Positions 11,251-12,885 of a stretch of DNA of 64,000 nucleotides are shown piece after piece. The first letter of the stretch is position 1. Each line of letters opens with the position of its first letter. The position numbers and the translations under genes were made by a program. Under the pieces are notes generated by a model, which saw only the letters and a program-made list of their open reading frames with translations, had not been told where the DNA came from and ran no database searches. The stretch is from Clostridiales bacterium (lineage in GTDB: Bacteria; Bacillota; Clostridia; Christensenellales; Borkfalkiaceae): positions 248,001 through 312,000 of the forward strand of contig SVIG01000002.1 of the NCBI GenBank assembly GCA_015071005.1. The letters are read 5' to 3'.

Positions 11251-11571
11251 TTAGAGTAAATAGAAGGGCATTTCAGAGCCAAGTTCTACGCGTACAAAGC
11301 CTTCCTTCTTCGCAGGTTTTACAACTGCTTTCTTTGCAGGCGCTTTCTTTGCCGTAGATTTTGCAGCGGGCTTTTTCGCAGCCGTAGCCGTCTTTGCCTT
11401 CGGCGCCGCCTTTGCTTTCGCCGCCGTTTCTACGGGCGTAATAAGTTTTTCTACTACTTGAGGGTCGGGATTTGCAAGCACGTTACTGTTCTCCATGTCA
11501 GGTGCAGAAGTTTTTACCTTCGAATAACCGTTGTTTTCTACTCTTTTGATTGCATTTTTACCGATGGGCAT
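11251..11571 (-). CDS. Lys/Ala/Pro-rich small protein, candidate ParA partner/adaptor
   Basis: MPIGKNAIKRVENNGYSKVKTSAPDMENS...KAKAAPKAKTATAAKKPAAKSTAKKAPAKKAVVKPAKKEGFVRVELGSEMPFYLL; overlaps the ParA-type gene by 14 nt. Confidence 0.72.
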   Translation of the reverse strand: MPIGKNAIKRVENNGYSKVKTSAPDMENSNVLANPDPQVVEKLITPVETAAKAKAAPKAKTATAAKKPAAKSTAKKAPAKKAVVKPAKKEGFVRVELGSEMPFYLL

Positions 11572-12349
11572 AATCCATAATCTCCTTTGCAAGTTTTGTA
11601 TATTCGACCGCGCTGCGGCTCGATTTCTTGAATACAACGACGGGTTTGCTGTTGTCCTGCGACCATTCCACCGCGCTGTCTACGCGGATATAGTTCTCAA
11701 ACAAGCGCGCGTTTTCCATTTCTTTGAGCGTTTCCATCGTTTGCTTGAAATATTTTTTTCTCTCGTCCGCTTTCGTCACGGCGATCCCAAGAATTTCCAA
11801 TCTCGGCGCAATATTTTTCGCTTGGTTGACAAACTCAAACATATTCGCCAAGCCGAATAAACCCCAAGGGCTTGCTTCTATGGGAATCAACACGTAGTCG
11901 GACGCGCACATAATATTCATTACCCAACCGCCAAGCGTCGGGGGAGAGTCGATTAAGATATAATCGTAATACCCTTTCGCACGTACACGCTCCAAGCATT
12001 TTTTGAATACGGTTTCTCTTTGCCATTTCGCAAACAAATCAAATTCGATTGCACTCATAAGAGAGGTCGAGGGCACGATATCCAAGCCCTTGATGCCCGT
12101 TTCCACGATATAATCGGACAAATCCCTCTCGCCTACGATCGCGCGATAGATATTCTTATCCCCTTTCGCATACTCGTAAGCCTGCTCTTCATCGAAGAAG
12201 GAAATGGTGAGATTCAACTGCATATCCCCGTCGATCATCAGCACTTTTTTACCAGCCAACGCGAGCGCACAGCCCACGTTGGAGCAGGTCGTCGTCTTAC
12301 CGCTGCCACCTTTATTGTTCGCAAATGCGATTACGATTGTTTTGCTCAT
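11558..12349 (-). CDS. ParA/MinD-type P-loop ATPase
   Basis: MSKTIVIAFANNKGGSGKTTTCSNVGCALALAGKKVLMIDGD deviant Walker A; YDYILIDSPPTLGG. Confidence 0.9.
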   Translation of the reverse strand: MSKTIVIAFANNKGGSGKTTTCSNVGCALALAGKKVLMIDGDMQLNLTISFFDEEQAYEYAKGDKNIYRAIVGERDLSDYIVETGIKGLDIVPSTSLMSAIEFDLFAKWQRETVFKKCLERVRAKGYYDYILIDSPPTLGGWVMNIMCASDYVLIPIEASPWGLFGLANMFEFVNQAKNIAPRLEILGIAVTKADERKKYFKQTMETLKEMENARLFENYIRVDSAVEWSQDNSKPVVVFKKSSRSAVEYTKLAKEIMDYAHR

Positions 12350-12363
12350 AATTTCTCCGTTTT

Positions 12364-12885
12364 TTATAACAGCCAAGTATCTAAACCCGACTTTTCATTT
12401 GATTTTTTCGGCGCAGGCGTCGGTTTTTTAACCGTTTTCACCCGTTTTTTCACGTCCGAATCGTCCTGCAAATACGCCGCAAGCTCGGGGATACCTTCCC
12501 CCGTAAACGAGCTCACCGCAAAAATCTTTTTGCAACCGGCAAGCTGCAACCATCTACGCACCCTTTCCACGTTCGCGTCGGGTTTGTCGATGCCCGTGAT
12601 GATTCCAATCGCTTCGCGATTGACCATACTCGTAAGACAGGGCGAGAAAATGGAATAGGGTTCGTTTGCCGACAGCACGAGTCCTACGACGTCCGCTTCG
12701 TAAGCATAAAGCGCCAACGCACCGCTCGTTTCGCGGCGTTCGGTGTATTCCCCCGGCGTATCGATAACCGTATCGAGATAATTGACGTACTGCGTTTTAT
12801 AATATTTAATTTCTTCGCCGCGCAAAGCCTGCGTTAGAGTAGTCTTCCCTGCCGCAACTCTGCCGAACAACATAATTTTTTTCAT
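12364..12885 (-). CDS. EutP/PduV-like GTPase with basic C-terminal extension
   Basis: MKKIMLFGRVAAGKTTLTQALRGEEIKYYKTQ...IDTPGEY...GIITGIDKPDAN; tail KKRVKTVKKPTPAPKKSNEKSGLDTWLL. Confidence 0.87.
   Translation of the reverse strand: MKKIMLFGRVAAGKTTLTQALRGEEIKYYKTQYVNYLDTVIDTPGEYTERRETSGALALYAYEADVVGLVLSANEPYSIFSPCLTSMVNREAIGIITGIDKPDANVERVRRWLQLAGCKKIFAVSSFTGEGIPELAAYLQDDSDVKKRVKTVKKPTPAPKKSNEKSGLDTWLL

Follow-up and report, generated by a model that had tools for sequence, protein, structure and literature searches.

McdB-type adaptors contact ParA through a basic N-terminus, and in carboxysome McdB the cargo is bound by the C-terminal aromatic residue (PMC11321042). This residue, a Trp, is needed for carboxysome binding and Tyr largely substitutes for it; McdB-like proteins encoded in PDU and GRM loci carry Tyr or Phe among their last five residues (PMC11321042). 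As for the PduV/EutP GTPases, a two-hybrid test detected binding of PduV to the shell protein PduU (PMC4315436), which makes a shell-located GTPase reasonable; in one study, EutP of Salmonella appeared to be cytosolic (PMC12487888).

In this work we describe a microcompartment locus of a Clostridiales bacterium in which a McdB-like adaptor and a PduV/EutP-family GTPase, encoded on either side of a ParA gene, have the same aromatic-Leu-Leu end. The adaptor half of this finding falls within the known McdB-like proteins, whose C-terminal aromatic residue is already published. The new part is the tail of the GTPase, and the shared end provides a concrete link between this GTPase and the McdAB system.

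The GTPase, ParA and adaptor genes

The window analyzed (the whole stretch of 64,000 nucleotides, contig SVIG01000002.1) contains at positions 11251-12885, on the minus strand, three genes in the order GTPase, ParA, adaptor. They are located at the end of a GRM5-type locus, after a EutS/PduU-type shell gene that adjoins the GTPase gene (12894..13259, minus strand; Pfam BMC, with EutS as the best NCBIfam match, below its cut-off). The remainder of the locus (13636..28832, minus strand; assigned with Pfam) includes genes for an activase, a glycyl radical enzyme, BMC-T, PduS-like, EutN, PduL and BMC-H proteins, together with alcohol and aldehyde dehydrogenases, a class II aldolase, acetate kinase and L-rhamnose isomerase. 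The combination of glycyl radical enzyme, class II aldolase and shell genes, all recognized by Pfam, places it in the GRM5 type.

The BMC-T gene is located at 17240-17785, and BMC-H genes at 20406-20678, 20758-21030, 21095-21370 and 21407-21724. Two of these BMC-H shell genes are near-identical (20406-20678 and 21095-21370; 90 and 91 aa); they lie about 0.7 kb apart and a third, different BMC-H gene is located between them. Directly downstream of the adaptor gene, at 8349-11156, the window encodes a 935-aa protein matching GH106 alpha-L-rhamnosidase. Its relatives come after the adaptor in several loci, and this position fits a rhamnose-fed compartment.

The GTPase (12364..12885, minus strand, ATG at 12885) has a length of 173 aa and is the only strong PF10662 member in the genome. 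It matches this Pfam family with an E-value of 2e-51 over profile positions 1-142, and TIGR02528 (EutP) with 149 bits against a cut-off of 138. The G4 motif reads TGID in the window and [TSA]GIDK in all 53 GTPases of related McdAB-linked loci, so that the canonical [N/T]KxD is absent, while relatives elsewhere have TKID or TQID. Judging from this motif, which the family models do not require, nucleotide specificity or affinity may differ.

The ParA/McdA-like ATPase (11558..12349, minus strand, 263 aa) contains the deviant Walker A motif NNKGGSGKTTT (KGG-x-GKT type) and matches Pfam AAA_31 with an E-value of 4e-53, as is characteristic of McdA-like proteins. It forms a subfamily of its own. Relatives scoring 370-430 bits were found in one second family described below, and outside these loci and this family a phylum-level search revealed only ordinary ParA proteins with 155 bits or less in the class and phylum samples. 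In two loci (L113 and L121, from genomes G137 and G449) the McdA-like ParA stands alone; no adaptor was recognizable next to it, nor elsewhere in the genome by profile, and both genomes encode a PduV/EutP GTPase.

The third gene encodes a protein of 106 aa (11251..11571, minus strand), counted from a conserved ATG at 11571; the 128-aa open reading frame in the supplied list starts at an upstream TTG. The start of this gene and the end of parA overlap by 14 bases. The protein matches no Pfam family, and neither its profile nor that of the GTPase found a match in the PDB. A profile scan with one genome per species revealed 54 related loci, all in metagenome-assembled genomes of Clostridia and mostly from ruminant or rabbit gut. 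The order GTPase-ParA-adaptor within a microcompartment locus, and thus the position of the adaptor gene beside an McdA-type ATPase gene, was found in all 53 loci with enough contig; the 54th ends at a contig edge.

The N-terminal block of the protein (residues 1-29; 11485..11571, minus strand) is basic and nearly invariant among 37 aligned relatives, with the pattern M-x-IGKNAIKRVENNGYS-x-V...APDMENS; by analogy with described adaptors it is the probable ParA contact. It is followed by a linker rich in Lys, Ala, Pro and Thr (11275..11484, minus strand), whose length and sequence change freely, unlike the conserved ends on either side of it. AlphaFold2 predicted no fold (pTM 0.17), and the last 16 or so residues were the best scored, at about 80. 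The disorder, biased composition and low hydrophobicity, the conserved basic N-terminus, the aromatic C-terminus (His in five members aside) and the adjoining ParA gene together identify the small protein, by sequence, as a McdB-like adaptor of the McdA-like ParA, an identity that the preliminary description of this region had not given it. By analogy, it would bind the microcompartment and position it together with ParA.

The shared aromatic-Leu-Leu end

The preliminary description had noted that the GTPase and the small Lys-rich protein both have a basic linker that ends in an aromatic residue and two Leu. This is indeed the case: on the minus strand, the adaptor ends in EMPFYLL (11254..11274) and the GTPase in LDTWLL (12367..12384). 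An alignment of orthologs, the first check that had been proposed, agreed with this description and showed for both proteins that the terminal aromatic-Leu-Leu is conserved while the linker drifts.

In the 52 distinct adaptor loci and the window the adaptor end has the consensus [ED]-[ML]-P-x-[YWHF]-L-L. Pro at position -5 is invariant and encoded by four codons; positions -2 and -1 are each Leu in 52 of the 53 sequences, in the former case through six codons. Position -3 is occupied by Tyr (40), Trp (7), His (5) or Phe (1). The five His-bearing adaptors, which end in PIHLL or PVHLL, belong to one 11-row clade and break a strict W/Y/F rule.

In the GTPase, the Pfam PduV-EutP domain spans residues 1-140. 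It is followed by a drifting Lys/Pro-rich linker (residues 141-167; 12385..12465, minus strand), variable among relatives in both length and sequence, and by the terminal motif. The AlphaFold2 model of this protein is weak (pLDDT 60); it contains no secondary structure past residue 140, and pLDDT falls below 50 at residues 149-157 and 161-173. The earlier guess that the GTPase carries 20-25 extra residues was a fair one, since the protein continues for about 33 residues past the domain and exceeds short tail-less relatives (144-160 aa) by 13-29. A tail of the form [LV]-[DEAPQ]-[TAV]-[WYH]-L-L on a drifting basic linker is present in 22 of the 53 McdAB-linked GTPases and in that of the window. 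Both Leu are invariant in these 23 sequences and are encoded by three and five codons, five at position -2, while position -3 is Trp in 20, Tyr in two and His in one.

Comparison of the two ends revealed four positions in common: a hydrophobic residue at -6 (Leu or Met), an aromatic residue or His at -3 (Trp, Tyr and His occurring in both), and Leu at -2 and -1. They differ in the two residues before the aromatic one, P-[YFIV] in the adaptor and [DEAPQ]-[TAV] in the GTPase, and in the preferred residue at -3, which is Tyr in the former and Trp in the latter. Both ends are under purifying selection, as read from residues that stay constant across varied codons.

To see how common such ends are, we surveyed 1,361 genes predicted by a simple codon-bias caller in 1,681,438 of the 1,687,223 bases of the genome (99.7%). 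Exactly two of them end in [WYFH]-L-[LM], namely the GTPase and the adaptor, whose genes are separated by parA alone. Composition predicts about 1.5 such ends; their count is thus ordinary and their placement is not (p ~0.003, our own estimate under random placement). Within the 54 related loci, none of 393 annotated open reading frames of ten other kinds ends in aromatic-Leu-Leu.

A diverged adaptor was revealed in the second family of nine genomes mentioned above, seven of which have the same ParA subfamily followed by a different adaptor. It starts with MSIGK-[SN]-SI-[SN]-RA, thereby retaining IGK-[SN]-SI-x-R of the conserved N-terminal block, and ends in [LM]-P-x-[YF]-L-L. Its middle part is a ParB_N domain (PF02195, E-value 6e-9 in the one tested), which replaces the Lys-rich linker. 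Since this adaptor keeps both ends, the ends are functional units independent of the middle. Examples are found downstream of ParA at L118:9791-10414 and also in L114 and L122-L127, with the ends MSIGKSSI and ELPxYLL. In one genome that was read widely, no microcompartment genes were seen within 9 kb of the ParB_N adaptor gene, and wherever both this gene and a GTPase gene were found they were on separate contigs. A PduV/EutP GTPase is encoded in seven of the nine genomes, and shell genes are present in an eighth; neither was seen in the ninth, which is 76% complete. In the literature library searched, no report was found that joins McdB, a ParB domain and a microcompartment.

Gain and loss of the GTPase tail

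In 31 of the 53 loci the GTPase lacks the tail, although ParA and the adaptor are kept. The preliminary description had named such an absence as evidence against its proposal of a common docking site, and on this point it did not hold; what the absence indicates is that the tail is optional and derived, not that it is functionless.

Outside McdAB-linked loci no tail was found in 36 GTPases, comprising seven of family f77, the family with the ParB_N adaptor, and 29 from a class survey that covered the best-scoring 29 of the matches; none of these 29 has ParA or an adaptor within flanks of 1.5 kb on each side. One candidate, the L101 GTPase ending in EYLL, was rejected as its EYLL belongs to the final helix of the core and no linker precedes it.

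In a tree calculated from a concatenation of six locus proteins, with the tail excluded, the tailed rows are found in a single clade of 34 rows, 11 of which are tail-less and occupy at least four separate places within it. The presence of the tail requires a minimum of five changes on this tree, and a clade of tailed GTPases alone was rejected (AU p 1.5e-5). Since distant tailed rows (L071 and L072) share the LDT/VET context, the pattern reads as one gain followed by several losses. The missing tails are not frameshift or assembly errors: the stops are clean, several overlap the start of parA, and no WLL remnant was seen in other frames of the loci inspected. The GTPase-parA junction is a gap of 8-24 bases in all 22 tailed loci, and the two genes overlap in 23 of the 31 tail-less ones.

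Thus, on the sequence record, the GTPase tail is best described as an optional, derived add-on: it is present in 22 of the 53 McdAB-linked loci, absent from the 36 GTPases read outside such loci, confined to one clade and repeatedly lost, which also makes it dispensable. It should be mentioned that its link with McdAB goes back to an apparent single gain, so that their co-occurrence is not independent evidence.

Three tail-less loci (L036:881-1486, L037:755-1351 and L041:6616-7212) contain between the GTPase gene and parA a gene for a protein of about 200 aa with a lipoprotein-like signal.

Possible docking of the two ends and comparison with known systems

The adaptor end corresponds to the organelle-docking part of McdB, and the most economical explanation is that the GTPase obtained a docking end equivalent to it. 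We therefore favor, with moderate confidence, the view that the ParA-type ATPase and its adaptor form the positioning module of a GRM5-type (rhamnose/fucose) microcompartment and that the neighboring GTPase has come to mimic the cargo-docking end of McdB, through either copying or convergence. In such a module the basic N-terminus of the adaptor would touch nucleoid-bound ParA, and its P-x-aromatic-Leu-Leu end, carried on a flexible basic tether, would dock in a hydrophobic site at the surface of the organelle. L-D-T-W-L-L of the GTPase would occupy this site or one equivalent to it. The GTPase would thereby be kept at the shell, next to EutS/PduU, whose gene adjoins its own, and might there compete or co-operate with the adaptor.

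The preliminary description had suggested a common docking site on either the shell surface or ParA. Of the two, a common site on the shell is the best reading of the tail sequences, from which we infer a pocket shared by both proteins. ParA is the less likely partner since adaptors of this type use their N-terminus to contact it. The adjacency of the GTPase and ParA genes, and their junction, which is mostly an overlap without the tail and always a gap with it, would agree with a GTPase that docks on ParA to regulate it or to be carried by it. But ParA partners use a basic N-terminus (PMC11321042), a feature of the adaptor that is missing from the GTPase, and the same ParA subfamily occurs where the GTPase is tail-less, so we regard this explanation as very unlikely. 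Better, though still unlikely, is the proposal that the partner of the GTPase tail is the adaptor, with the tail either binding it directly or joining adaptor condensates that coat the organelle, through cation-pi and hydrophobic contacts. The C-terminal aromatic residue of carboxysome McdB also drives condensation (Trp > Tyr > Phe), which the authors favor as part of McdB docking (PMC11321042), and both tails pair a Lys-rich linker with an aromatic end. However, the strict C-terminal Leu-Leu, the invariant Pro of the adaptor and the fixed distance to the C-terminus resemble a pocket motif more, and His at position -3 of some members is poorly explained by aromatic stacking alone.

The likeness of the two ends might also be coincidental: the adaptor would then end in a true McdB docking motif, and the conserved tail of the GTPase would be unrelated to it and have a different partner. 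The different upstream contexts ([ED]-[ML]-P-Y versus L-D-T), the preference for Tyr in one and Trp in the other, and the fact that the GTPase tail can be lost and the adaptor tail never is would all be expected in that case. Against this stand the placement of the genome's only two such ends one gene apart, the four aligned positions common to both, and the same unusual His substitution at -3, and we consider a coincidence rather improbable. Short nonpolar C-termini can serve as protease signals in bacteria, and the two ends could accordingly be degradation or quality-control signals, shared for a common turnover rate and not for a docking site. Yet such an end has no other use among the 1,361 predicted genes, and that of the adaptor, with its invariant Pro and upstream acidic residues, matches the experimentally defined McdB docking end; this possibility appears highly improbable.

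Returning to docking on the shell, it can be tentatively suggested, in a wider form that we hold somewhat short of probable, that shells present a common pocket for aromatic-Leu-Leu C-termini, the clients of which would be the ParA adaptor, the ParB_N adaptor and, separately, the PduV/EutP GTPase. If so, two suspected positioning systems, the GTPase and McdAB, would be joined at one organelle site. A second natural protein whose matching end was gained and lost independently offers the peptide pair LDTWLL and EMPFYLL together with tail-less natural controls, such as the GTPases of L047, L054 and L074. Should the two peptides turn out to compete for a single shell protein, it would become possible to map the docking site and to exploit it for surface display on engineered shells.

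Compared with known systems, the locus resembles McdAB systems (PMC8262871, PMC11321042) in that a microcompartment locus encodes a ParA-type ATPase and, after it, a small Lys-rich and disordered adaptor, and the adaptor resembles the McdB-like proteins of PDU and GRM loci in its conserved basic N-terminus and the aromatic residue near its C-terminus. Unlike carboxysome McdB with its invariant Trp, the adaptor ends in P-x-[YWHF]-L-L with His allowed, and unlike in known McdAB systems, one related family has a ParB_N domain between the conserved ends. The GTPase has the P-loop, the DTPGEY motif and the domain of the PduV/EutP family (PF10662, TIGR02528), and its gene lies beside a EutS/PduU-type shell gene; it differs from the 36 members read outside McdAB-linked loci in the basic linker and the L-D-T-[WYH]-L-L end, and the McdAB-linked GTPases depart from the usual [N/T]KxD of GTPases in reading [TSA]GID. 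Like described GRM5 loci for fucose and rhamnose (PMC4207490), this one contains a glycyl radical enzyme with its activase, PduS-like protein, class II aldolase, PduL, EutN, BMC-H and BMC-T. GRM5-like loci elsewhere in the class have the GTPase without ParA or an adaptor beside it (in the best 29 of the matches, with 1.5 kb flanks). The published description of GRM5 (PMC4207490) lists no ParA, McdB-like or PduV/EutP genes, whereas all three are present here.
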